Positions 6,587-26,160 of a stretch of DNA of 33,990 bases are shown in pieces (position 1 is the first letter of the stretch; the number at the start of each line of letters is the position of its first letter). The notes beneath the pieces are model-generated. The model saw only the letters and a list, made by a program, of their open reading frames with translations. It ran no database searches and had not been told where the DNA came from. The stretch lies in the NCBI GenBank assembly GCA_903906055.1, contig CAIVIS010000043.1, positions 1 to 33,990 on the forward strand, read 5' to 3'. This DNA comes from an uncultured Acidimicrobiaceae bacterium. Lineage in GTDB: Bacteria > Actinomycetota > Acidimicrobiia > Acidimicrobiales > RAAP-2. The position numbers were made by a program, and so were the translations under genes.

Positions 6587-7990
6587 TCAGCCACCTACCA
6601 GCTTGTCGAGGGCCCGGGCATGCCAGGTGGAGCGACCGGCGCGGTCCTCGGCCCGATCTGCGGTGCCGGCCAGTCGCAGTCCGGCGTTGATGCCGACGTA
6701 GCGGAAGGGCTCCGGCTCCCATCGCCGAGAGCGGTGATTCACCCATGGGAGCGAGGTGAGGTCAGAGGTGCGGCCGAGGATGAGGTCGCGCAGTGTTCGG
6801 CCGGCCAGGTTCGTGGTGGAGAGTCCGTCGCCTACATAACCGCCAGCCCAGGCCATCTGCGTCGCGTCGTCGAGCCCGACTGAGGAGAACCAGTCGCGGG
6901 TGATGCCGAGTGGACCACCCCACCGATGAGTGATGGCCGCATCGGCCAGCGCTGGGAAGAGCTCGACCAGAGTGCGCTGCAACGCCTGGTGGACATCGCT
7001 GTCGCGTTCGAACTCCGGACTGATGGCCGATCCGAAGTGGTAGGGGGCGCCCCGGCCACCGAAGGCCATGCGGCCGTCCTCGGTGCGCTGGCCGTAGATG
7101 ACCAGGTGACGGTGATCAGCGAAGGTCTCGCGCTCGGCCAGGCCGGCCTCGGCCCAGAACGACTCGGGCAGGGGCTCGGTGGCGATCATCAGCGAGTAGA
7201 CGGGGATGACCTCGCGGCGGTGCCCGGACAGCGTGCGGGTGTAGCCCTCGGTGGCCCGCACCACGGTGCCAGCCCGCACCGTCCCTCGCGCTGTCGTGAC
7301 CATGCCAGGGGCGATGGAGTGCACCTCGGTCTGCTCGTAGAGGGCGACTCCTCGCCGTTCGACGACGTGGGCCAGCCCACGGATCAGTCGGGCGGGGTCG
7401 ACGGCGGCACAGTGCGGTGTAAAGGTTCCGCCCAGAACATCGGTGGCCCCCAGCCGCGAGCGGGCTTCGTCAGCTGACAGGAACCGGAGGTCCTCTTCTC
7501 CGATCCCTGAGTTCCGAGCGGCTGCGATCTCCTCGTAGGTGCGCTGCAGCTGTGCCGGCGTGCGGGCCACGATGACTGTGCCGCCGGCCGCGAATCCGCA
7601 GTCGATGCCCTCGGCATCGACGACCCGGCCAACCTCTCGGACGGTCTCTTCCATAGCCAGCCGTTGCGCTCGGCCGCTGCCGGGTCCGCACCGTTTGTCG
7701 AGGGTCTCCTCGGAGACCGAAAATAGCGCCGAGCACCAACCGCCGTTGCGCCCAGATGCCCCGAAGCCGATGACGTCCCGCTCGAGCACGGCAATGCGGA
7801 GCCCGGGGTCAGCCGCACTCAAGTAGTGGGCGGTCCACAGTCCAGTGAGCCCACCGCCGACGATGGCCACGTCGACCTCGGTGTCTCCCGGCAACGGGTC
7901 GCGCAGGCCGATGGTGCCCGGCAGCCCATCCCACCACAGGGAGAGGCGCCGATAGCGCTCACCCCCGGGTGGGTTCAGATCCGCTTCCAC
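6587..7990 (-). CDS. DAO-family FAD-dependent oxidoreductase (gamma-glutamylputrescine-oxidase-like)
   Basis: This 467-residue flavoprotein belongs to the D-amino acid oxidase/glycine oxidase superfamily. It has the Rossmann FAD motif VAIVGGGLTGLWTA at about residues 40-53 and FGASGRNGGW near residue 77, typical of PuuB-like amine oxidases. The reaction is probably FAD-dependent oxidation of an amine or N-alkyl amino acid to imine/aldehyde, ammonia or amine, and H2O2. The start is a GTG at 7990 that overlaps the end of the upstream aminotransferase gene by 16 bp, so the two are translationally linked and follow lrp in one operon. A polyamine-derived substrate is inferred from context. The sequence alone does not distinguish putrescine derivatives from other secondary amines, and no glutamylputrescine synthetase is in the window. 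Confidence 0.85.
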   Translation of the reverse strand: MEADLNPPGGERYRRLSLWWDGLPGTIGLRDPLPGDTEVDVAIVGGGLTGLWTAHYLSAADPGLRIAVLERDVIGFGASGRNGGWCSALFSVSEETLDKRCGPGSGRAQRLAMEETVREVGRVVDAEGIDCGFAAGGTVIVARTPAQLQRTYEEIAAARNSGIGEEDLRFLSADEARSRLGATDVLGGTFTPHCAAVDPARLIRGLAHVVERRGVALYEQTEVHSIAPGMVTTARGTVRAGTVVRATEGYTRTLSGHRREVIPVYSLMIATEPLPESFWAEAGLAERETFADHRHLVIYGQRTEDGRMAFGGRGAPYHFGSAISPEFERDSDVHQALQRTLVELFPALADAAITHRWGGPLGITRDWFSSVGLDDATQMAWAGGYVGDGLSTTNLAGRTLRDLILGRTSDLTSLPWVNHRSRRWEPEPFRYVGINAGLRLAGTADRAEDRAGRSTWHARALDKLVGG

Positions 7991-9345
7991 GCCTCGGTAA
8001 GGACCGTGCGAAGCCGCGAGGTGATGTACTCGAACTCTTCGGGCCCACAGGTGAGCGGCGGGGACAGCTGGATCACCGGGTCGCCCCGATCGTCGGCCCG
8101 ACAGATCAGTCCAGACTCGTAGAGAGCCCCGGACAGGTAGCCCCGCAGTAGGCGCTCCGACTCGTCGTCGTTGAACGTCTCCTTGGTGTCCTTGTTCTTG
8201 ACCATCTCGATGCCGTAGAAGTACCCGGCACCTCGGACGTCACCCACGATCGGCAGGTCCCGGAGCGTCTCGAGTGAGGCCCGGAAGGCGCCTTCGTTGG
8301 CCCGGACGTGCTCCAGGATCCCTTCTTTCTCGAAGACATCGATGTTGGCCAGGGCCACGGCCGTGCTGACTGGATGGCCGGCGAAGGTGATGCCGTGCAG
8401 GAAGGTGGTTCCGGCCAGGAAGGGCTCGATGATCCGGTCGCTGACGGCTACCGCGCCCAGTGGGGCATAGCCGCTGGTGAGGCCCTTGGCCATGGTGATC
8501 ATGTCGGGTACGTAGTCGTAGCGCTCAGCACCGAAGAAGTGGCCGAGCCGGCCCCACGCGCAGATGACTTCATCGGAGACGAGCAGAACTCCGTACTTGT
8601 CGCAGATCTCACGCACCCGGCGGAAGTAGCCAGGGGGAGGAGGGAAGCAGCCACCGGCGTTCTGCACCGGCTCGAGGAAGACGGCGGCCACCGTCTCGGG
8701 GTCTTCCAGGATGAGCGCCTGTTCGATGGAGTCCGCAGCCCACTGGCCGAAGGCGTCGATGTCGTCTTCGAAGTACGGAGCACGGTAGAAGTTGGTATTG
8801 GGGACCTTGAAGGCACCGGGGATGAGGGGCTCGAACGGGGTGCGCATCTCGGTCACCCCGGTGATCGACAGGGCGCCCATCGTGGCACCGTGGTAGGCGA
8901 TGTTCCGGCTGATGACCTTGTACCGCTGGGGCTGCCCGATCAACTTGAAGTACTGACGGGACAACTTCCATGCTGACTCGACCGCTTCGGAGCCGCCGGT
9001 GGTGAAGAAGATCCGGTTGAGGTCTCCCGGGGTGAGGCTGGCGATCTTTTCGGCCAGTTCGATGGCCTTGGGGTGGGCGTAGCTCCACACCGGAAAGTAG
9101 GCCAGCTTGGCTGCCTGCTCGGCGCCTGCCTCTACCAGCTCCATCCGGCCGTGGCCCAACTGGCTGGTGAACAGACCCGACAGCCCGTCGAGGTAGCGCT
9201 TGCCGTGCTGGTCGTAGACCCAGACCCCTTCGCCCCGGACAATGACCGGGACGTCGTTGACGGGGGCACCCGACATGCGGGTGAAGTGCATCCACAGGTG
9301 CCGATGTGCGGCCTCTTGCAGGGCGTCGTTGGAATAGTCGGTCAT
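7975..9345 (-). CDS. Class III PLP aminotransferase (putrescine/omega-amine:pyruvate type)
   Basis: This 456-residue fold-type I class III aminotransferase has GGSEAVESAWKL around residues 117-128, YHGATMGALS near 151, the PLP-binding LVSDEV (Asp258), and the Schiff-base lysine Lys287 in MAKGLTSGYAPLG. The ATG at 9345 is chosen because it overlaps the lrp stop codon as ATGA and has GGGGGA just upstream; an ATG at 9357 is possible. The subfamily transaminates terminal amines such as putrescine or cadaverine, or beta-alanine/taurine, often with pyruvate as acceptor. It sits between lrp and an amine oxidase and opposite an aminobutyraldehyde-type dehydrogenase, which favours an SpuC-like role. 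Alanine dehydrogenase in the same locus would fit recycling of the alanine product. Confidence 0.85.
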   Translation of the reverse strand: MTDYSNDALQEAAHRHLWMHFTRMSGAPVNDVPVIVRGEGVWVYDQHGKRYLDGLSGLFTSQLGHGRMELVEAGAEQAAKLAYFPVWSYAHPKAIELAEKIASLTPGDLNRIFFTTGGSEAVESAWKLSRQYFKLIGQPQRYKVISRNIAYHGATMGALSITGVTEMRTPFEPLIPGAFKVPNTNFYRAPYFEDDIDAFGQWAADSIEQALILEDPETVAAVFLEPVQNAGGCFPPPPGYFRRVREICDKYGVLLVSDEVICAWGRLGHFFGAERYDYVPDMITMAKGLTSGYAPLGAVAVSDRIIEPFLAGTTFLHGITFAGHPVSTAVALANIDVFEKEGILEHVRANEGAFRASLETLRDLPIVGDVRGAGYFYGIEMVKNKDTKETFNDDESERLLRGYLSGALYESGLICRADDRGDPVIQLSPPLTCGPEEFEYITSRLRTVLTEAWKRI

Positions 9346-9821
9346 CGGGTCCCCCATGTGTAGGTCTGCTTCTTCAGTTTCAGGTACATGAACGTCTCGG
9401 TGCTGCGCACGCCGGGGATCTTGCGGATCACTCCGTTGAGCAGCTCCATCATCTGGTCTTCGTCCTCGCACACCAGCTCGACGAGGATGTCGTAGGTGCC
9501 GGTCACCAGGACCACATAGTCGATGTCTTCGACGGCGGCCAGGCGGTCGGCGACCTCTCGGGCATCGCCGTCGGCCCGAATGCCGACCATGGCCTGGCTG
9601 TGGAAGCCGATCTGCAGGGGGTCTGTGACCGCCACGATCTGCATGATTCCGGCGTCGCGCATCTTTTGGACCCGTTGGCGCACGGCTGCCTCGGACAGTC
9701 CGACCACTTCGGCGATCGACCCGTAGGTGCGCCGTCCGTCCTGCTGGAGTTGTTCGACGATGGCCTTGTTGACGTCATCGAGCAGTCCGACAGCGGACGA
9801 CGTGGGCATCGGGACGGTCAC
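9342..9821 (-). CDS. Lrp/AsnC-family transcriptional regulator
   Basis: This is a 159-residue regulator. The N-terminal winged helix-turn-helix spans about residues 15-60 (LLDDVNKAIVEQLQQDGR, then LSEAAVRQRVQKM). The C-terminal RAM/AsnC ligand-binding domain follows (VLVTGTYDILVELVCEDE). The GTG at 9821 is preferred because GGAG lies 7 nt upstream; an ATG at 9809 gives 155 residues. It is the first gene of the minus-strand operon with the aminotransferase (4-nt overlap) and FAD oxidoreductase, and it is divergent from the aldehyde dehydrogenase. Lrp proteins commonly bind such divergent regions and respond to the amino acid or amine that the flanking genes degrade. The AT-rich inverted repeats at 9902-9958 are the natural candidate operators. 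Confidence 0.9.
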   Translation of the reverse strand: MTVPMPTSSAVGLLDDVNKAIVEQLQQDGRRTYGSIAEVVGLSEAAVRQRVQKMRDAGIMQIVAVTDPLQIGFHSQAMVGIRADGDAREVADRLAAVEDIDYVVLVTGTYDILVELVCEDEDQMMELLNGVIRKIPGVRSTETFMYLKLKKQTYTWGTR

Positions 9822-9901
9822 GTGGGAACTCCGGGTGTGTCGGAGCGCTGACTGCCCAGATGACAATGAGGGCGGAAGTTGGACGCGGTCATTACTTTAC
9901 T

Positions 9902-9914
9902 TTTCTAGCAGAAA
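9902..9914. promoter_or_regulatory. Candidate Lrp half-operator, inverted repeat TTTCT-agc-AGAAA
   Basis: This is a perfect 5-bp inverted repeat with a 3-bp spacer in the AT-rich centre of the lrp/aldehyde dehydrogenase divergent region. Lrp sites are typically AT-rich dyads, and the location suits autoregulation. No binding evidence exists; this is inference. Confidence 0.4.
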
Positions 9915-9930
9915 CTCTACAGTTACAGTG

Positions 9931-9958
9931 GAAATCCGCGAGGAAACAGCCGGATTTC
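9931..9958. promoter_or_regulatory. 8-bp inverted repeat in lrp/ALDH divergent region
   Basis: GAAATCCG at 9931-9938 and CGGATTTC at 9951-9958 are exact reverse complements separated by 12 bp, so the dyad centres are two turns apart. Together with the dyad at 9902-9914 this forms a cluster upstream of both divergent genes, a typical layout for an Lrp octamer that wraps DNA. An alternative is a transcript hairpin on the plus strand, but the loop is long. Confidence 0.5.
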
Positions 9959-10101
9959 GTGGTGCGTGACCATGAATCTTCCGATAACACTTGTCAGAAC
10001 GCCCAAGATGGGCAACGATGAATCCCACTTGGCGGGTTGGACCTGCCGTATCACCGGTGACGGGGATTCCGTCAACCGCAACCGACTTTTTGGGAGGACC
10101 T

Positions 10102-11535
10102 GTGAGCATCACCCGCCTGTCGAACTTCGTGGGAGGCGCCTACGTCGAGACCCGCTCGGGTGCGACCTCGGAGTTGATCGATCCGAGCACCGGTGAAGTG
10201 AACCTCGAGGCCCCGGTATCGGGAGCCGACGACGTCGGCGCTGCCGTGGCTGCTGCGGCTGACGCGTTTCCTGGATGGCGTGATGCCACTCCGTCCGAGC
10301 GCAGCTTGGCGCTGTTGCGCATCGCTGATGCCATCGAGGCCCGGGGCGAGGAGTTGGCGGCCGTAGAGGGAGCGGACACCGGAAAGCCCTTCGCTCTCAC
10401 CATGTCCGAAGAGATCCCCCCGATGGTCGACCAGATCCGGTTCTTCGCCGGTGCGGCCCGCAACCTCGAGGGCAAGTCCGCTGGCGAGTACCTGGCCGAC
10501 CACACGTCGATGATCCGACGGGAGCCGATCGGTGTATGCGCGGCCGTGACGCCCTGGAACTACCCGATGATGATGGCGGTGTGGAAGTGGGCCCCGGCAC
10601 TAGCGGCCGGAAACTCCATGGTGCTGAAGCCCTCGGACACCACCCCGGCATCGACATTGCTGATGGCCGAAATCATGTCGGAGTTTCTGCCTGACGGCGT
10701 CTTCAACGTGGTGTGCGGCGACAGGGACACCGGCAGGGCCCTGGTCGAGCACCCGACCCCGGCCATGGTGGCCATCACCGGCAGCGTCCGGGCCGGTATG
10801 GAGGTGGCTGGGTCGGCGGCTCACGACCTGAAGCGGGTCCACCTGGAACTCGGTGGCAAGGCCCCGGTCATCATCTTCGACGACGCTGACCTGGAGGCCG
10901 CCGTCGAGGGCATCGTGGGTGCCGCATACTTCAACGCCGGCCAGGACTGCACGGCGGCTACCCGTGTGCTGGCCGCCCCGGGGATCTACGACGACTTCGT
11001 GGCCGCTTTGGCCGAGCAGGCAGCCGCACAGACGGTGGGTGGGACCGACATACTCGATGCCGACTACGGCCCACTCAACAGCGCCGCGCAGCTCGAGCGG
11101 GTCAGCGGGTTCTTCGACCGGCTCCCCAGTCATGCCGAGGTAGTCACCGGTGGTACCCGGGTGGGGGAGCGCGGCTACCTGTTCGCCCCCTCGGTCATCG
11201 CTGGCCTCCGCCAGGACGACGAGGTCATCCAAGAAGAGTTGTTCGGCCCGGCCATCACCGTGCAGTGCTTTTCCGATGAGGACCAAGCCCTGGCATGGGC
11301 CAACGGCGTGCGCTACGGGCTGGCCTCGAGTGTGTGGACCCAGAACCACGGACGGGCCATGCGGATGGCCAAGGCCCTCGACTTCGGCTGCGTGTGGATC
11401 AACACCCACATCCCGATCGTCGCCGAGATGCCCCACGGCGGGTTCAAGCATTCGGGTTACGGCAAGGACCTGTCGGGCTATGGCTTCGAGGACTACACCC
11501 GGATAAAGCACGTGATGAGCTTCATCGGGGCCTAG
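10102..11535 (+). CDS. NAD-dependent aldehyde dehydrogenase, gamma-aminobutyraldehyde type
   Basis: This 477-residue aldehyde dehydrogenase starts from a GTG preceded by GGAGG at ideal spacing. Core motifs are PWNYP (Asn153, oxyanion hole), VLKPSDTTP (NAD site), ITGSVRAG, LELGGKAP with the general base Glu249, and GQDCTAATR with the nucleophile Cys283. Overall it resembles the PatD/PuuC/betaine-aldehyde dehydrogenase subgroup, oxidising an amino-aldehyde to the amino acid, for example 4-aminobutanal to GABA. It is divergent from lrp, the aminotransferase and the amine oxidase, either of which could produce its aldehyde substrate. The permease follows 70 bp downstream on the same strand. Exact aldehyde specificity is inferred from context. 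Confidence 0.88.
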   Translation: MSITRLSNFVGGAYVETRSGATSELIDPSTGEVNLEAPVSGADDVGAAVAAAADAFPGWRDATPSERSLALLRIADAIEARGEELAAVEGADTGKPFALTMSEEIPPMVDQIRFFAGAARNLEGKSAGEYLADHTSMIRREPIGVCAAVTPWNYPMMMAVWKWAPALAAGNSMVLKPSDTTPASTLLMAEIMSEFLPDGVFNVVCGDRDTGRALVEHPTPAMVAITGSVRAGMEVAGSAAHDLKRVHLELGGKAPVIIFDDADLEAAVEGIVGAAYFNAGQDCTAATRVLAAPGIYDDFVAALAEQAAAQTVGGTDILDADYGPLNSAAQLERVSGFFDRLPSHAEVVTGGTRVGERGYLFAPSVIAGLRQDDEVIQEELFGPAITVQCFSDEDQALAWANGVRYGLASSVWTQNHGRAMRMAKALDFGCVWINTHIPIVAEMPHGGFKHSGYGKDLSGYGFEDYTRIKHVMSFIGA

Positions 11536-11551
11536 GTTGCATCGAGAGGTT

Positions 11552-11588
11552 GCATCAGAAGGGCATCAGAGGGGCATCAGAGGGGCAT
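11552..11588 (+). repeat. 11-bp tandem repeat, ~3.4 copies
   Basis: GCATCAGARGG-type units begin at 11552, 11563 and 11574, with a partial copy at 11585. They fill most of the gap between the dehydrogenase stop and the permease ribosome-binding site. A related GGTTGCATC pair precedes them. The array is non-coding and would place the SD of the permease at a length-variable distance from the upstream gene. Confidence 0.7.
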
Positions 11589-11605
11589 AGTCAAGGGGGA
11601 AGCGC

Positions 11606-13153
11606 ATGGACAACACGACCCATACCGATCACGAGGTCCTCGGACCGTTCGGTGCTCCGGTGCCGGCCAGCGAAGAACAAGCACAGCTCAGATCGGACGA
11701 GCTGAACCTATTTGATGCTACGGCGGTGGCCGTGTCGTCGGTGGCGCCGGCGTACTCGCTGGCATCCACGTTGGCCTACGTGTTCATCGCCCTCGGGGTC
11801 AGCGCTGTCTTCGGTCCGTCCGTGATCGTCGTGAGCTTCATCCCGGTGCTCTTCGTGGCTATTGCCTACTTCCATCTCAACCGTCGGGACCCGGACTGCG
11901 GTGCTTCGTACTCATGGCTGTCCAAGGTGATCCACCCCTTCGTCGGATGGTTCAACGGTTGGGTGCAGGTGGCCACTTCCGCCATCTTCTGCATCTCGGC
12001 CTCGATCCTGGCTGGCCAGTACACGCTGCAGCTCTTCAACAGCCTGGGTTGGATCAACTCAGCCACAGCCTCCAGCGTCTGGTACACGTCGCTGATCGGC
12101 ATCGCCTGGCTGGTGCTGATCACCTCGATGTGCGTCTACGGCATCCGCTGGACGACCAACTTCCAGTGGATCCTGGTCATCATCGAGTACTCGGTGGTGA
12201 TCCTCTTCTCACTCTGGGGGATCTACAAGGCGGTCTTCACCCACCCTGCTGGCTCGACCGGCTTCCACCTCTCCTGGCTGAATCCGTTCGAAGTCACTTC
12301 GTGGAGTGCCCTGGCCGCTGGTATCGCGCTGGGAGTCTTCTTCTTCTGGGGATGGGACACCGCAGTCAACCTGAACGAAGAGACCAAGAACCGCACGCAC
12401 ACTCCAGGACATGCCGGGATCTTGGCCATGTTCCTCCTACTGGTGGTCTTCTTGATCAACTTCGTATCGGTGGAGATGCTTATTCCGCAGAAGGTCATCG
12501 AGGCGCAGGGCTCGAACATCCTCTTCTATTACGCAGAGCACGTATTCGGGACTTGGGCTGGCTACGTCATGATCTTCGCCGTCATCACTTCGACGGTCGC
12601 CACCACCCAGACGACGCTGTTGCCAGCATCGCGGATCACTCTGTCGATGGCCCGGGACAAGGTGTTCCCCCATGTCTTCGCTCGGATCCACCCGAAGTTC
12701 CAGACCCCTGCTGTCGGCATCATCACCCTGGCCTGCTTCACCACGGTCGGCATCATCTTGAACTCGGGGAGCCCCTCGGTGAACTCCATTATCGGCAGGC
12801 TCATCCTCGACATCGGCGTCCTGGTCGCCTTCTACTACGGCATGACCGGGATTGCTTGTGGCTGGGCGTATCGCAAGGTGGCGTTCAAGAAGTTCTCGTT
12901 CTTCTTCACCGGCGTCCTTCTCCCGTTCCTTTCGGGACTGTTCCTCCTCTACGTCTGCTACGAGGTCATCGTGAGTAACGGCTGGGGCGAGGCCATCCCG
13001 ATCCTGGTGACGCTGGGCCTCGGGATCCCGCTGGCCCTCGTGGCCAGGTTCACCACAAAGGGCGACTTCTTTAAGGTGAAGCCCATCGCCTATGACTCGA
13101 TCGAGGAGCCCGAGTCGATCGAGGAATCCCAGCAGGCGCCTGTCGCGGTCTAA
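11606..13153 (+). CDS. APC-superfamily amino acid/polyamine permease
   Basis: This is a 515-residue integral membrane protein with about 12 hydrophobic segments. The ATG at 11606 has AGGGGGA 5 nt upstream. TM1 (VSSVAPAYSLASTLAYVFIA) has the unwound-helix pattern of APC transporters. TM6 and the loop after it read FFFWGWDTAVNLNEETKN, the family signature around the substrate and Na+/H+ site. The hydrophilic tail is acidic (IEEPESIEE). It follows the aminobutyraldehyde-type dehydrogenase and precedes alanine dehydrogenase, so it probably imports the amine or amino acid degraded by this locus. Putrescine, an amino acid or ethanolamine cannot be separated from sequence. Confidence 0.88.
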   Translation: MDNTTHTDHEVLGPFGAPVPASEEQAQLRSDELNLFDATAVAVSSVAPAYSLASTLAYVFIALGVSAVFGPSVIVVSFIPVLFVAIAYFHLNRRDPDCGASYSWLSKVIHPFVGWFNGWVQVATSAIFCISASILAGQYTLQLFNSLGWINSATASSVWYTSLIGIAWLVLITSMCVYGIRWTTNFQWILVIIEYSVVILFSLWGIYKAVFTHPAGSTGFHLSWLNPFEVTSWSALAAGIALGVFFFWGWDTAVNLNEETKNRTHTPGHAGILAMFLLLVVFLINFVSVEMLIPQKVIEAQGSNILFYYAEHVFGTWAGYVMIFAVITSTVATTQTTLLPASRITLSMARDKVFPHVFARIHPKFQTPAVGIITLACFTTVGIILNSGSPSVNSIIGRLILDIGVLVAFYYGMTGIACGWAYRKVAFKKFSFFFTGVLLPFLSGLFLLYVCYEVIVSNGWGEAIPILVTLGLGIPLALVARFTTKGDFFKVKPIAYDSIEEPESIEESQQAPVAV

Positions 13154-13277
13154 GGGCAGAACGGGCCCACCCGACTCGCCGACGTGTGGCGGACGGGCGG
13201 ATCGCTGTCCGGTTGACCGTGAATCTGACCATCAAGCCCGACCGTGAAGCCCGACGAAGTGAAGTGAGGATGTCCCG

Positions 13278-14399
13278 ATGATTGTCGGAGTGCCCAAAGA
13301 AGTGAAGGCAGACGAGTACCGGGTGGCCATCACCCCAGCTGGCGTGCGCGAACTGACCGCAGCCGGGCACACGGTGTACGTGGAGAAGGAGGCCGGGGTC
13401 GGATCGTCGATACCGGATGCCGACTTCATAGCCACCGGCGCCCAGATCATGGACGACCCTGACGACATCTGGGCCTCGTCGGACATGATCCTCGGGGTCA
13501 AGGAGCCGATCGCCGTCGAGTATCCGCGGCTCGGCATGAAGAAGGACCAGGTCCTGTTCACCTACCTGCACCTGGCCGCGGGACGGGCCTGTACGGAGGC
13601 GCTCATCGCCGGTGGCAATACGGCCATCGCCTATGAGACGGTGCGCCTTGCCGACAACTCGCTGCCCTTGCTGACGCCGATGAGCGAAGTGGCCGGACGG
13701 ATGGCACCGCTCATGGGTGCACATCACCTGATGCGGCCCGGGGGTGGACGCGGAACCCTGGTCTGCGGTGTGCCCGGTGTGCGCTGCGCCAAGATCGTGA
13801 TCCTCGGGGCTGGAGTTGCCGGGATGGCTGCGGCCACCTTGGCTGTGGGCATGCACGCCGAGGTCTACATCCTCGACCGGAACTTGGAGCGCCTTCGTCA
13901 AGTCGACCACCACTTCCGGGGTGGACTCGAGACGGTGGCTTCCAGCACGCATGCCATCGAGGAGGTCTGCGTCGATGCCGACATCGTCATCGGTGCCGTC
14001 CTAGTGGTGGGGGCCAAGGCTCCCAAGTTGATCAGTGACGACCTGGTGGGGCAGATGCGCGATGGATCCGTGCTGGTGGACATCTCGGTCGACCAGGGCG
14101 GTTGCTTCGAGTCGACCCGGCCCACCACCCACTCGGACCCGACCTTCGAGGTCAACGGCTCGATCTTCTACTGCGTAGCCAACATGCCCGGGGCTGTTCC
14201 TCACTCCTCGACCCACGCCCTGGTGAACGCCACCATGCCGTATGTCATGAACATCGCCAACCACGGATGGCGTGATGCCGTCCGTGAGGACGCGGCGCTG
14301 GCCGAGGGGGTCAATGTGGTGGACGGCATGGTCGTCTACGAGCCAGTCGCCGAGGCCCACGGCATGGACTTCCGCCCATTGTCCAAGTTCGTCGCCTGA
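13278..14399 (+). CDS. ald: Alanine dehydrogenase
   Basis: This 373-residue enzyme interconverts L-alanine with pyruvate, NH4+ and NADH. Family residues seen are Arg15 (EYRVAITP), Lys75 (GVKEP), a His in YLHLAAGR, the NAD-binding GAGVAG at 177-182 with Asp200 at the end of the second strand (NAD preference), and DISVDQGG with the catalytic Asp. Length matches the family (~370). GAGGA lies 7 nt upstream of the ATG. It is 124 bp downstream of the permease on the same strand, so probably in the same regulon. With a pyruvate-linked aminotransferase in the locus, it would regenerate pyruvate and release ammonium. Orthologues are often Lrp/AsnC controlled, which suits the neighbouring regulator. 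Confidence 0.95.
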   Translation: MIVGVPKEVKADEYRVAITPAGVRELTAAGHTVYVEKEAGVGSSIPDADFIATGAQIMDDPDDIWASSDMILGVKEPIAVEYPRLGMKKDQVLFTYLHLAAGRACTEALIAGGNTAIAYETVRLADNSLPLLTPMSEVAGRMAPLMGAHHLMRPGGGRGTLVCGVPGVRCAKIVILGAGVAGMAAATLAVGMHAEVYILDRNLERLRQVDHHFRGGLETVASSTHAIEEVCVDADIVIGAVLVVGAKAPKLISDDLVGQMRDGSVLVDISVDQGGCFESTRPTTHSDPTFEVNGSIFYCVANMPGAVPHSSTHALVNATMPYVMNIANHGWRDAVREDAALAEGVNVVDGMVVYEPVAEAHGMDFRPLSKFVA

Positions 14400-21181: not shown

Positions 21182-21281
21182 GGGCCGCTAGAGAGCGACC
21201 CAGTATTCGGGCCGCTAGAGAGCGACCCAGTATTCGGGCCGCTAGAGAGCGACCCAGTATTCGGGCCGCTAGAGAGCGACC
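21182..21281 (-). repeat. 27-bp tandem repeat array forming RNA hairpins, spanning the regulator stop codon
   Basis: Three perfect 27-bp units lie at 21182-21208, 21209-21235 and 21236-21262. A fourth partial unit (19 bp) at 21263-21281 contains the TAG stop codon and last two codons of the response regulator. Read on the minus strand, each unit contains GGGTCGCT-CTCT-AGCGGCCC, an 8-bp stem (one G-U pair) with a 4-nt loop, then GAATACT as spacer. On the plus strand the same position would be a C-A mismatch, so the fold is favoured in the regulator's transcript. No T-run follows, so these are not classical intrinsic terminators. They could act as a transcription brake, an RNA-stability barrier or a convergent-gene insulator. 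Confidence 0.85.
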
Positions 21282-22027
21282 TGGCGACTACCTGTCGGGG
21301 TGTACCGGTAGCCGTAGCCCCGGATGGCTTCGAGGGTGTCCTTCTGCTCGTCCTGCCAGCCCAACTTGCGACGCAGACGCAGCACGGTGAACTTGACCCG
21401 CTCTGGGCCGATGCCGAACGGATCGTTCCACACCTGCTCGAGCAGCTGCTGTGTGGCCAGGGCCTGGCCAGGATGGCGAACGAAGGTGTGGAGCAACTGG
21501 AACTCGAGCTTGGTGAGGCCGACCACTTCGCCGTCCACTCGCACCTCGCGTGCCGACCAGTCGACCTCCAGGTTTCCGTCCTGATAGACGGTGGCCTCCT
21601 CGGGGGCGCCCGCTCCGGCGATCGGGGTGATCTGGCTCCGGCGCAGCAGCGCCTGGATCCGAGCACCGAGCTCTTGGACGCCGAACGGCTTGGTGAGGTA
21701 GTCGTCGGCCCCGGCGGTGAGGCCACGGACCTTCTCCTGCTCGAGGTCGTGGGCGGTCAGGATGAGCACGGGCACCTCGGAAAGGTCACGGATCCGCTCG
21801 AGGACCTCCCAGCCGTCCATGCCGGGGAGCCCGATGTCCAGGACTACCAGGTCGGGCCGGTCTTCGAAGAAGCTGCGCAGTCCGTTGCGCCCGTCACCGA
21901 CGATGACGCCCGTGCCCTGCTGCTTGGCCACGATCCGCTGCACCGCTTCGGCGATGGAGGGGTCGTCCTCGATGATGAGGACGCGGGTCGTCTTGGAGGC
22001 CTGGTCGGGGCTGAGTGTCGTAGTCAT
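21269..22027 (-). CDS. OmpR/PhoB-family response regulator
   Basis: This is a 252-residue DNA-binding response regulator. The receiver domain (residues 15-130) has the acidic pair Glu20/Asp21-Asp22, phospho-acceptor Asp64 (VVLDIGLPG), Thr91 and Lys113 (LTKPFG). The C-terminal winged helix (about 150-245) includes LTKLEFQLLHTFVRHPG and VLRLRRKLG, ending RGYGYRY. The ATG at 22027 overlaps the kinase stop codon (TGATG) with AAGGAG 8 nt upstream; a GTG at 22030 is an alternative. It is co-translated with the permease-kinase hybrid just upstream, its evident cognate sensor. Its 3' end runs into the 27-bp hairpin repeat array. Confidence 0.95.
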   Translation of the reverse strand: MTTTLSPDQASKTTRVLIIEDDPSIAEAVQRIVAKQQGTGVIVGDGRNGLRSFFEDRPDLVVLDIGLPGMDGWEVLERIRDLSEVPVLILTAHDLEQEKVRGLTAGADDYLTKPFGVQELGARIQALLRRSQITPIAGAGAPEEATVYQDGNLEVDWSAREVRVDGEVVGLTKLEFQLLHTFVRHPGQALATQQLLEQVWNDPFGIGPERVKFTVLRLRRKLGWQDEQKDTLEAIRGYGYRYTPTGSRQVAL

Positions 22028-25000
22028 CACGGGTGCTCCTTGCGTTGTCCATCCACCTGCTGGCTGAGTGCCGGGGCATGGGCTCCGACATCAGAGGCTC
22101 CACTGCCGATCGGCAGTAGATCCTCAACATCTCTATCGGCGGTTTGCAACAGTTCTTGAGCCTCCTGTTCGGCGGCATCTTGGGCTGCACCGAGCGATGG
22201 CAGTCGGACCCGGATTGTGGTCCCCTGACCAGGGGCCGAGGCCAGGCTGATCGTGCCACTGTGGTGCTCCACGATGGCCTGGACGATGGACAGACCCAGC
22301 CCGGTTCCGGGTATGACCTCGTGGGTGGCCTCAGCTCCGCGGACGAAGCGACCGAACACGGCGTCCTGCTCCGCCAGGGGGATACCGATACCGGAGTCGG
22401 CGACCGTGAGGACGACGGTTGTCTCCGATGTGGTAGCCGACACCCGGATCTGCCCATGAGCAGGGGTGAACTTGATGGCGTTGTTCACCAGGTTGATGAG
22501 CATCCGCTCGAGTTGATTGGCGTCACCGAGGACCCAGGTGCCCGAGGTTGCCGAAGTCGCCTTGCGGGCCGTGAGCGTCACCTGCTTGGCCTGGGCCATG
22601 GGTAGCAAGGACTCGCAGACATCGGCGATCAGTGGCTCCACGTCTACGGGAGTCAGGTCGATGTCGTAGACAGCGGAGTTGAGGTGGGACAGCGTCAGGA
22701 TGTCTTCGATGAGGATCGACAGCCGCATGCTGTTCTTTTCGATGATCTCGAGCATCCGATCCTGATCGGAGTTGTCGCCGTCGCTCTCGTCTTGCAGGAG
22801 TTCGGTGTAGGCCCGGATGCTGGTCAACGGCGTGCGCAGCTCGTGGGAAAAGGTCGAGAGGAACTCGCTTTTTGCCCGGTCCAGGTCCTGGAGCCGGGTG
22901 ACGAGCTCACTTTGGCGCTGGTAGATATCGACCTGGACGATGGCTCGACCGAGGTCGGATCCCACCGAGTCGACCAGAGCGATGTCATCTTCATTCCATT
23001 CGACTACCGCCTCCACCATGCCGAGGCCGAGCAGGGCCAGCAGGTTGCCGTTGGCGTCGTGGACGGGCGAGAGGATCCAGGAGCGGTAGCCGCTCGAGTC
23101 GATGAATAGCGGCTGGTCGTCGGGGTCGGGGGAGCGAGGGAGGTTGGCGATGTCGGTAATGGCCAGAGTTCCCCGTCGACTGGCCACACCCTCGAGGAAC
23201 TGCCGGTTTCGATCCGACAGGGTCAGGGCCGCATCGGCTACCGAGTCGAGGCGTTCGGGATGCCAGACGGTGGGAGTGTTGAGGAAAGCGCCGCTCCCAT
23301 CAGCGGTGTAGATGGCGACGACGTCGACGTCGAGGACCAGTCCGATCGACGATGCGATTTCGGCCAAGGTCGAGTCGAGGTCGGCGCCTTCGAGTTCGGT
23401 GGCACCGAGCCGCGAGGAGAGGAACCGCATCCGATCGTGCATGTCCTGGCGCCGGCGGTGGGCCTGCTCGATCTCCTCGTGGGCCGCGATCAGGGCCACG
23501 GTGCGCTCCTCGACCAGGAGCGCCAGCTGCCCTCGATGGTCCCTGAGCTCACCGACCGCCTCGTCGAGCGCCACGGCGGCCCGTGCTGCCTCGTCCTGCA
23601 TCAGGTTGAAACTGACGGCCATCTGTCCGAACTCGTCTTCCGTCCGGATGACTACCGGCGCGACGACCACCGAGACGTGGGCCTCATCGAGGTCACCACT
23701 GGCCATGGCCTCGATGGCCGTGGTCAGGTCGGCCAGGGTTCCCTCCGCCAGGTCCATGGCTGCGTCCCGAACCTGATTAGCGGTGTGGGCGATCATGCCG
23801 GGCAGGATCAGCGCCAAGGCGATGGTGAGGAGTCCGACGGCGACGAAGATGTCCTGCACCACGGCCAACGTGGCGCTGCCACCCATCTCCACGTCGTTGT
23901 CGACGGCGATCAGGTAGCCGATCCCGTCGAGGAGCAGCACTACGAGCATGGCTCCGGTGAGCTTTACGTAGATGGAGCGGCGGACCACGGGGGCACTAGA
24001 ACGTCGTCGGTCCCCGTGAGCTCGCCATGCGTAGGCCAGGGAACCCGAAAAGGTCAGCGCCAATCCGAAGAGGACGATGGACAGCCCGTACTGCTCGAAC
24101 CCGAACACCGTGGCGAGCAGCCACACGAACGCAGCCACCACCCCCAGTCGGATGGACCAGTCGCGGGCGCGGTAGGGGCGTGGTCGATCGGGCTCGTTGC
24201 GGCGCAAGAGCCACACGGCGATGCTGGGCAGGGCGATGCCGATCAGGTAGGTCAGGTTGGCGGCAGCGATGAGGGCGATCGGATTGCCGACGAGCAAGAA
24301 GATGATCGACGCCGCCGCGGTGACCACGATGGCGACTACTGGTGCGTCAGTCCGGCGACTGCGGAAGCCGAGGCTCCGGGGGAGCAGACCGTCCTCGGAG
24401 AGCTGCGACAGGGTCCGAGACGCCCCCGACAGCGGTTGCAGGGTGCCGCAGAACATGTTGAAGGCCACGAATCCGACGGCGGCGGCCTTGGCCAGACTGC
24501 CGAACACGGGAGCGAACGTCGGCCCCAGCATGGCCGCCAGGTTGCCCTCGAGCGGCCCGGGTCCGTAGAACCCCAGCCAGACCACAGGGAGGAGGATGAA
24601 GAACACGCTGGCCATGCCGCCGCTGAACCACACGGCGGCGGGTTGATCGAAGGCCGGGTCCTTCATCTCGCCGATGTGGCAGGCGGCCGCCTCGAAGGCC
24701 GGAGCGGCGAACCCGATCAGGTAGAGGCCGGCCATGACGCTGGTCAGGTGGCCGAAGGCGCCACCGAACGGGGACTTCAACTGAAAGTCGAGCGCACGGT
24801 GCCAGTCCACGTGTCCGGTGAGGACGGGGATGAGGCCCGAGCACAAGGCCAGCACAAAGGCGATCAGGGCGATGGGTTTGGCCACACGGACCGCCCAGCG
24901 CAGGCCGCACAGATTGACGGCGGTAAAGGCGAGCACGATGGCGGTGGCCATGAGCTTGACCGATGCGTGGGGCAGATACCACTGCTGGATAGCTTCGGCC

Positions 25001-25416
25001 GACAAGATGGCGGTCAGCCCGCAAGTCGGGACCCAGCCCCACCAGTAGCAGACACCGGTGAGGTTGGAGATGACGGCGCTGTAGGGCCGGAACGCCTCGG
25101 CGCAGGTGGCGGCGATGCCCCCGACCCGGTTGGGGAACATGCACGAGAGTTCGATCCAACCCGGGGCAGCCATGTAGCTCAAGATGAGACCCACGGCGAG
25201 GAGCGGGACGGCCATGGTCCCTTGGGCCAGCAGAAGTGCGCCGATCAGGAAGATGGCCCGGTTGGAGCCTCCGAGGGCCAGAGCGCTGGCCCCCACCCAG
25301 GTAATGGTGCGCGGGTGTGGCCGGATCTCCTCGCTCGGCGAGGCGCCACGCATGGACGGAGGCACGTAGATGACGTCCGTTTCCGCTGTGGATGCCTTGT
25401 TGCGGTGAGGGCTCAT
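22027..25416 (-). CDS. APC permease-histidine kinase hybrid (transporter-coupled sensor kinase)
   Basis: This is a single 1129-residue frame. Residues ~35-465 are an APC-superfamily transporter: TM1 GASALALGGSNRAIFLIGA, TM6 YLIGFAAPAFEAAACHIGEMKDP, about 12 hydrophobic segments, and LPSIAVWLLRRNEPDRPRPYR, typical of permease C-terminal regions. Two further TM segments (~487-506, ~521-541) lead to a HAMP domain (~540-610, with DEFGQMAVSFN) and a coiled coil (~610-660). A GAF domain spans ~675-825. HisKA has His858 in STFSHELRTPL. HATPase_c has N box NLVNNAIKF, G1 DSGIGI (Asp1007) and G2 GTGLGLSI. All kinase residues are intact. The ATG at 25416 is chosen because permease similarity begins soon after; the frame is open to 25917, but that part is repeat-like. 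The architecture recalls CbrA (SLC5 transporter plus kinase) but with an unrelated transporter fold. The likely role is sensing or transporting an amino acid or amine and controlling genes through the coupled regulator. Confidence 0.9.
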   Translation of the reverse strand: MSPHRNKASTAETDVIYVPPSMRGASPSEEIRPHPRTITWVGASALALGGSNRAIFLIGALLLAQGTMAVPLLAVGLILSYMAAPGWIELSCMFPNRVGGIAATCAEAFRPYSAVISNLTGVCYWWGWVPTCGLTAILSAEAIQQWYLPHASVKLMATAIVLAFTAVNLCGLRWAVRVAKPIALIAFVLALCSGLIPVLTGHVDWHRALDFQLKSPFGGAFGHLTSVMAGLYLIGFAAPAFEAAACHIGEMKDPAFDQPAAVWFSGGMASVFFILLPVVWLGFYGPGPLEGNLAAMLGPTFAPVFGSLAKAAAVGFVAFNMFCGTLQPLSGASRTLSQLSEDGLLPRSLGFRSRRTDAPVVAIVVTAAASIIFLLVGNPIALIAAANLTYLIGIALPSIAVWLLRRNEPDRPRPYRARDWSIRLGVVAAFVWLLATVFGFEQYGLSIVLFGLALTFSGSLAYAWRAHGDRRRSSAPVVRRSIYVKLTGAMLVVLLLDGIGYLIAVDNDVEMGGSATLAVVQDIFVAVGLLTIALALILPGMIAHTANQVRDAAMDLAEGTLADLTTAIEAMASGDLDEAHVSVVVAPVVIRTEDEFGQMAVSFNLMQDEAARAAVALDEAVGELRDHRGQLALLVEERTVALIAAHEEIEQAHRRRQDMHDRMRFLSSRLGATELEGADLDSTLAEIASSIGLVLDVDVVAIYTADGSGAFLNTPTVWHPERLDSVADAALTLSDRNRQFLEGVASRRGTLAITDIANLPRSPDPDDQPLFIDSSGYRSWILSPVHDANGNLLALLGLGMVEAVVEWNEDDIALVDSVGSDLGRAIVQVDIYQRQSELVTRLQDLDRAKSEFLSTFSHELRTPLTSIRAYTELLQDESDGDNSDQDRMLEIIEKNSMRLSILIEDILTLSHLNSAVYDIDLTPVDVEPLIADVCESLLPMAQAKQVTLTARKATSATSGTWVLGDANQLERMLINLVNNAIKFTPAHGQIRVSATTSETTVVLTVADSGIGIPLAEQDAVFGRFVRGAEATHEVIPGTGLGLSIVQAIVEHHSGTISLASAPGQGTTIRVRLPSLGAAQDAAEQEAQELLQTADRDVEDLLPIGSGASDVGAHAPALSQQVDGQRKEHP

Positions 25417-25770
25417 GGGGGCTTTCGTGGCGTAGGCCGGTGTTCGGTGTTCGGTGTTCGAGACGAGCGGGTCGAGGGCTGCATCGCCGGCCGTGTGGTC
25501 GTGTTGGGTCGTTGGGTCGGTGGGTCGGCCGGCTCGTAGGTTGGGCTGAGTGCATGCTTCCCCCGAGGTATCGACTCGGTGCGGGTGGGCCTTTAGGGGG
25601 TTGCTGAATAGTTGCGTAATGGGTGCAGAACGGTGATCACCCGATTCTTGGTCCGGCGCCTCAGAGTCGCCTGATGGCATCTGGCGCCACGTTTGCGTGA
25701 ATGTCACACCCGACGTGCACCATGCGGCAATGACATCGAAGTCGGATCGACGACTCCAGGAGGAACTGCT
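25417..25770. promoter_or_regulatory. Divergent region: permease-kinase / CxxC protein
   Basis: This 354-bp region must contain the promoter of the kinase operon (minus) and of the CxxC protein (plus). It includes GGTGTTC three times in tandem at 25439-25459 and a degenerate GGGTCG/GTTGGGTC run near 25505-25530. There is also a relatively AT-richer patch around 25605-25625 with two GTTGC copies (TTGCTGAATAGTTGC). At the plus end AGGAGG lies ~7 nt before the GTG at 25771. I see no convincing riboswitch or small RNA gene. Confidence 0.45.
25439..25459. repeat. 7-bp tandem repeat, three copies
   Basis: GGTGTTC is repeated three times exactly, 23 bp upstream of the kinase start codon on the minus strand, within its leader. 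Confidence 0.7.
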
Positions 25771-26160
25771 GTGACACACGACCCATCGACGCATCAACCA
25801 GGTACAGACGAATCCGTGGGGACTGGTACCGGAGCAACCTCGAGGCCCATGGGCGTGGTCGTGCCGTTCACCAGCGGGCGTCGAGGAACGACTCCCGTCC
25901 GGTTTGGTGACCGCCACGGTGACGGATCGGGCGACCTGGCAGGCGACCGATCAGGCGAGGGAGCGTTCACTGTTGACTGTGCCGACTGCTCTCATCGCCT
26001 GACCTCGGTGTGCGACGACTGCATCGTGTCGTTCATCGTGGGCCGGGAACCCGAAGATGCCCTGGTGGTCGATGCTGACGAGGCCCGCGCCGTCCGACTG
26101 CTCGAACAGGCCGGCTTGGTGCCAGGAGTGCGCCATCAGCCTCGGGCCAGCGGCCTGTAG
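25771..26160 (+). CDS. Small CxxC...CxxC protein, conserved-hypothetical type
   Basis: This 129-residue protein starts from a GTG with AGGAGG 7 nt upstream. The first ~65 residues are low-complexity (Gly/Thr/Asp-rich). The C-terminal half has the only clear motif: two cysteine pairs, CADC and CDDC, 11 residues apart, followed by an acidic and hydrophobic helix (DADEARAVRLLEQAGLVPG). The paired CxxC suggests a small metal-binding (zinc-ribbon-like) or redox module. I recall similar short proteins in Actinobacteria as uncharacterised, but I cannot assign a function. It precedes the epoxyqueuosine reductase gene by 33 bp and is divergent from the permease-kinase. Confidence 0.75.
   Translation: MTHDPSTHQPGTDESVGTGTGATSRPMGVVVPFTSGRRGTTPVRFGDRHGDGSGDLAGDRSGEGAFTVDCADCSHRLTSVCDDCIVSFIVGREPEDALVVDADEARAVRLLEQAGLVPGVRHQPRASGL

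Follow-up and report, generated by a model that had tools for sequence, protein, structure and literature searches.

The window, by which we mean the whole 33,990-nucleotide stretch of DNA analysed here, encodes a protein in which a complete APC/SLC7-type permease is joined in a single frame, through a transmembrane (TM) hairpin and a HAMP domain, to a histidine kinase. This protein is probably one representative of an undescribed family of portable receptors, in which an APC/SLC7-fold permease, hairpin and HAMP would work as a general-purpose solute sensor whose outputs are histidine kinases, phosphorelays and c-di-GMP enzymes in at least six phyla; such proteins would be bacterial membrane-fold transceptors, independent of the SLC5-STAC hybrids. 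The sensor module is real, widespread and coherent, and is best read as a transporter-shaped receptor, a transporter-signalling hybrid in which the state of the permease, via hairpin and HAMP, would switch the fused output; we give this reading a probability of roughly 0.62. Transporter-receptor hybrids are held to be rare, and here the best-studied amino acid transport fold, that of human LAT1 and AdiC, would act as the input to signalling proteins in many bacterial phyla. Our literature search, with most subscription journals outside its coverage, returned no paper on an APC-HAMP fusion; domain databases may list the architecture.

The fusion lies in a minus-strand open frame (22027..25917). 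Read from the ATG at 25416, a start supported by a close homologue (L013) whose alignment begins at residue 1, it encodes a protein of 1129 aa with the following features:

22027..25416, minus strand: APC permease-TM hairpin-HAMP-GAF-HisKA/HATPase_c fusion, 1129 aa (translation and Pfam)
24001..25317, minus strand: APC (AA_permease_2) domain, residues 34-472, 12 TM helices (Pfam, AlphaFold2 and fold matches)
25249..25272, minus strand: TM1 substrate-site segment, residues 49-56, GGSNRAIF, family consensus GGSNQSLF (helix break at residue 52)
24667..24732, minus strand: TM6 substrate-site segment, residues 229-250, AGLYLIGFAAPAFEAAACHIGE (alignment of 67 modules)
23782..23973, minus strand: TM13-TM14 hairpin, residues 482-545, the putative coupling element to HAMP (AlphaFold2 and alignment)
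23572..23781, minus strand: HAMP domain, residues 546-615 (Pfam HAMP 561-609)
22939..23382, minus strand: GAF domain, residues 679-826, optional cytosolic input (Pfam)
22678..22875, minus strand: HisKA dimerisation/phosphoacceptor domain, residues 848-913, SHELRTP (Pfam)
22198..22527, minus strand: HATPase_c catalytic domain, residues 964-1073 (Pfam)
21269..22027, minus strand: cognate OmpR/PhoB-type response regulator, its start overlapping the kinase stop (TGATG) (Pfam)

The sequence-only reading had put an entire permease, followed by a TM hairpin, HAMP, GAF and a kinase with every catalytic box, into one frame, and both Pfam and the translation bear this out. AA_permease_2 (PF13520) covers residues 39-439 (E 2.8e-33, 115.9 bits against a cut-off of 27, profile 2-400 of 427), and HAMP, GAF, HisKA and HATPase_c, found in the same protein, each score above the Pfam cut-off. 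With its HAMP, its H-box (SHELRTP), N-box (NLVNNAIKF), G1 (DSGIGI) and G2 (GTGLGL) boxes and an adjoining response regulator, the fusion is a HAMP-containing HisKA two-component sensor kinase. The AlphaFold2 model of residues 1-655, built from a 67-row alignment (pLDDT 88, pTM 0.83), shows the 12 permease helices followed by helices 482-506 and 514-572, the latter being TM14 continuous into the first HAMP helix (AS1). In structure comparisons, which included Foldseek, residues 31-480 match y+LAT1, LAT1, Asc-1 and AdiC with Z of 36-39 at 15-19% identity (Z of 34-39 and 13-20% identity when BasC is counted in), and the permease is therefore a whole one of the APC/SLC7 type, as had been proposed, and not a remnant. 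Helix 219-245 (TM6) is unbroken in the model of the module, a feature to which we attach no meaning, since the model of the window's ordinary permease (11606-13153), intended as the comparison, had a pLDDT of only 45.

Short peptide patterns run against 84,980 species genomes gave 80 loci, at nearly all of which the permease is in frame with a signalling tail, in proteins of 717-1425 aa. Over the permease, hairpin and HAMP (residues ~30-655), 66 other sequences are 50-80% identical to the window protein, and they come from Actinomycetota, Verrucomicrobiota, Pseudomonadota, Chloroflexota, Dormibacterota and Omnitrophota. Judged by sequence, the conserved unit is this permease-hairpin-HAMP sensor module and not the kinase. 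HAMP is present in 75 of 75 proteins. GAF, which had been proposed as a cytosolic input, is indeed in the window protein, but it lies outside the conserved design, being found in only 7 of the 75, and we rejected it as the defining input.

What follows the module varies. When 76 proteins were classified by motifs and Pfam (with L017, L030 and L050 reassigned by reading), the outputs were simple HisKA kinases (11), hybrid HisKA kinases (35), HWE/HisKA_2 kinases (6), HisKA_3 kinases (3), other HATPase-type kinases (2), GGDEF-EAL (17), GGDEF-HD-GYP (1) and one protein with a partial PAS at its end; of the 18 cyclase-type members, 17 have an intact GG[DE]EF motif. The proposed permease-kinase fusion is therefore genuine in the window but too narrow for the family, which also carries c-di-GMP enzymes: this is a movable module with many outputs. 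In the module tree, a fully supported branch parts all fused copies from stand-alone permeases, the nearest of which, among those found, are only ~25-28% identical to the module, and the fused modules form one clade. Mapping the output labels on this tree requires 23 changes, against a minimum of 9, indicating that outputs were swapped many times while the hairpin-HAMP adaptor stayed the same and the sensor was reused repeatedly. The phyla are partly mixed on the tree, a gammaproteobacterial MAG grouping with Verrucomicrobia, which suggests horizontal spread.

How the module is wired to its outputs is also visible in the genes next to it. The downstream regulator begins with an ATG (22027) whose A is also the last base of the kinase stop codon, and it has Response_reg and Trans_reg_C domains, in agreement with the expected co-translation of the kinase with an OmpR-type regulator. 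Since orthologues of the regulator, 85-86% identical, adjoin the fusion in three related genomes, the kinase-regulator pair is a stable unit. More generally, a regulator gene lies at most 150 bp away from 17 of 22 receiver-less kinases and from 0 of 18 GGDEF-type members (Fisher p 3e-7), a count in which related genomes were taken separately and from which the apparent regulator neighbour of L087, a GGDEF member, was excluded as an error of clustering, its domains being HAMP-GGDEF-EAL. At L025 (8682-10913) and L027 (3498-5872) a kinase version is followed directly by a REC-PAS-GGDEF-EAL regulator; because other members fuse GGDEF-EAL to the module, its route to c-di-GMP runs in cis in some cases and in trans in others. 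Five Verrucomicrobiota loci (L028, L047, L051, L072 and L080) have what appears to be a conserved relay in two steps: the gene after the HWE-kinase version, whose start overlaps the kinase stop codon or comes close to it, encodes a REC-PAS-HATPase-REC protein (648-684 aa), and most of these proteins match HisKA.

We then compared conservation along the module. The pocket-lining segments, picked by analogy with known APC structures (TM1 49-56, TM3 121-130, TM6 233-242, TM8 318-326 and TM10 384-391), have a mean entropy of 0.35 bits, against 1.07 bits for the rest of TM1-12 (Mann-Whitney p 1.5e-9). Since these segments are the most conserved part, the permease is probably a receptor and not an anchor, as the earlier reading had favoured, and the loss of key permease residues across homologues that would have spoken for an anchor is not seen. 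TM1, TM3, TM6 and TM10 are conserved in ordinary transporters too, so this conservation backs ligand binding more than it backs sensing. The hairpin helices TM13 and TM14, at 0.85 and 0.95 bits, are as conserved as the core helices, and G500, Y501, A504, D522, F524, P539 and G540 are invariant in the 67-row alignment; the hairpin loop (2.69 bits) and the coil after HAMP (2.35 bits) are not conserved.

The TM1 and TM6 substrate-site signatures, expected to be kept, are so only in part: the positions are very strongly conserved, but the canonical motifs, TM1 GSG and TM6 G-(F/W)-(D/E), are absent from the fusion permease. In TM6, F236, A238, P239, E242 and E250 are invariant or nearly so among the 67 modules. 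Aligned to y+LAT1, the module has F-A-A-P-A-F-E where SLC7 proteins have F-S-Y-S-G-W-D; the Gly is replaced by Ala, and the acidic position (Asp/Glu) of the SLC7 'GWD' motif is retained as the invariant E242. For TM1 we took the register from the Pfam profile alignment together with the break in the helix at residue 52; on this basis N-Q-S stands in place of G-S-G family-wide, its Q conserved at 98% and its S at 92%, and N-R-A does so in the window protein. With the TM1 GSG and TM6 Gly backbone-binding signatures replaced, it is doubtful that alpha-amino acids are bound in the canonical way. Residues 53-54 of the window protein (25255-25260, minus strand) are R-A, whereas 98% of 66 homologous modules have Q at the first of these positions and 92% have S at the second; Q-S is present at 53-54 in its closest sister (L012, 80% identical) and in the second copy of the module in the same genome. 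An altered ligand is possible for this R53-A54 paralogue.

These observations can be put together in a mechanism. The sequences show the fold, the junction, the conserved pocket, the exchange of outputs and the pairing with regulators; ligand binding, the direction of signalling and dimerisation are what we infer. The APC permease domain would bind a small solute in its LeuT-fold pocket, and the permease, depending on whether it is occupied or on where it stands in its alternating-access cycle, would shift the conserved hairpin of TM13 and TM14 that packs alongside. TM14, forming one helix with HAMP AS1, would relay the movement to a HAMP dimer, which would switch whichever output is fused behind. 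In the window version, the HisKA kinase, with GAF as an auxiliary input, would phosphorylate the co-translated OmpR-type regulator.

Whether such a permease still transports divides the two readings that survive best. The permease may have lost transport and only bind, as reported for Ks-Amt5; this stands close to even odds, a little on the lower side, and accords with a pocket that is extremely conserved yet non-canonical, with a hairpin and HAMP dedicated to signalling and with a sensor that stays while its outputs swap. Weighing against it, TM1 is also non-canonical in the nearest named transporter family, the TMAO permease. The permease may instead be an active transceptor, transporting its solute while the flux drives the kinase, as reported for the uptake of histidine by CbrA. 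The complete 12-TM fold, the invariant acidic TM6 residue E242 and the CbrA precedent, in which histidine transport was measured (PMC7918813), all fit this; yet the whole family lacks the canonical TM1 GSG and TM6 Gly, and none of the stand-alone transporters found is close enough for activity to be deduced from it; we regard this reading as possible but doubtful. Clearly unlikely is that the permease is only a membrane anchor, with GAF or PAS as the real sensors. GAF or PAS does follow HAMP in some members, and overproduced soluble CbrA without its transporter still signals (PMC7918813), but many members have neither GAF nor PAS, and an anchor would not keep a 12-TM pocket 50-80% identical across phyla while the downstream domains change. 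Moreover, two TM helices are enough for an anchor and the hairpin already supplies them, and an anchor would not need hairpin helices conserved like those of the core.

That an assembly or frameshift artefact joins two separate genes has a practically negligible probability: the window comes from a 465-contig assembly, but the same in-frame junction is common to the 76 extracted proteins, whose sources include cultured isolates and complete replicons, and these in-frame homologues speak against a join or frameshift between permease and hairpin, the break that would have undone the fusion as first read. Among the cultured hosts are Roseiarcus fermentans, Glaciimonas immobilis and Actinoplanes palleronii, and the complete replicons are those of Verrucomicrobia IMCC26134 and a Paraburkholderia plasmid, whose version reads APC-HAMP-HisKA-HATPase-REC plus a further C-terminal region (tail domains read by eye).

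The module is, for all its breadth, rare. Within-phylum samples contained the module in 1 of 246 Actinomycetota and 1 of 145 Verrucomicrobiota, both genomes already known as carriers, and among genomes from the window organism's own genus and family its occurrence is patchy (8 of 61 searched). The second copy mentioned above (L127, G000:C366:3-731, minus strand) is 68% identical over residues 22-239 and runs off the end of its contig. On C347 and C411 this genome has two further long APC frames; read by eye, they are potassium-transporter-like permeases and showed no kinase. In an Actinomycetota MAG (L088:5950-9076), stop codons or a frameshift split the permease part into pieces of 77 and 761 aa, which reflects either decay or an assembly error.

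We searched next for clues to the solute. The best-scoring named family for the window module is the TMAO permease of Methylocella (NF053774), which all 67 modules match; the window module scores 149 bits against a cut-off of 690, and sequences that do pass it show ~25% identity with the module. Two stretches are common to module and TMAO permease, C-x-W-x-x-W-x-P (TM3) and FE-x-A-x-C (TM6). The TM3 stretch, and the fact that no other named family comes nearer, make a methylated amine or amine-like solute a weak lead as ligand. TMAO itself was rejected as the substrate, given a score so far under the cut-off and so low an identity, and remains a weak lead only.

The gene neighbourhood did not name a substrate either: clustering of the ORFs around the fusion loci yielded no recurrent metabolic gene, only regulators and species-level synteny, so this route was rejected. 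In the window, positions 6587-14399 encode a DAO oxidoreductase, a class-III aminotransferase, an aminobutyraldehyde-type dehydrogenase, a stand-alone APC permease and an alanine dehydrogenase, and look like an ordinary amine/polyamine catabolic block. These amine-catabolic and Ald genes had been suggested as targets of the kinase, a suggestion we set aside as unproven. Among the relatives, they are near the fusion in G303 only and on other contigs in G304-G306, where the fusions are near contig ends; a congener without a fusion match (G007) also carries the permease of the block.

Since the same sensor sits on a kinase and on a diguanylate cyclase, the readout of a transport cycle by a signalling domain becomes directly testable, and the HAMP junction of the module suggests that heterologous outputs could be driven. 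A 2024 survey describes strict membrane transceptors as oddities, reported only in eukaryotes (PMC11109136). Compared with known systems, the module resembles the 5TMR/LytS sensor kinases, related to ECF S-components, in being a transporter-derived membrane receptor with varied outputs (PMC11109136), but the two folds are unrelated. It shares with the Amt-kinase Ks-Amt5, which binds without transporting, is trimeric and is reported without a HAMP-type transducer (PMC5764959), the repurposing of a transporter fold as the sensor of a fused kinase; the fusion described here differs in having an APC fold, with no Amt domain by Pfam in the window protein, and a HAMP. With y+LAT1, LAT1, AdiC and BasC it has the 12-TM fold in common, whereas these SLC7/APC transporters have no signalling domains, and their own TM1 and TM6 motifs are canonical. 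The TMAO permease, similar in its TM3 and TM6 stretches, is a stand-alone protein, and the module falls below its family cut-off.

The closest parallel is with the SLC5 (SSS) kinases, such as CbrA, which combine a 13-TM SSS domain with a STAC linker (PMC13022988, PMC7918813). CbrA, MxtR (CrbS) and PrlS likewise unite a whole LeuT-fold secondary transporter, a histidine kinase and a cognate regulator, but there the transporter is of the SSS type, with 13 TM helices and coupling through STAC, whereas here it is APC/SLC7-like and followed by a TM hairpin and HAMP. Pfam gave no match to SSF or STAC in the window protein, and neither is among the families listed for the 75 proteins; with hairpin and HAMP in their place, the separate origin from SLC5/CbrA that had been proposed holds. 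Both SSS and APC transporters have the LeuT fold and fall within a single superfamily; what we describe is therefore an independent fusion inside that superfamily, and not one based on an unrelated fold.
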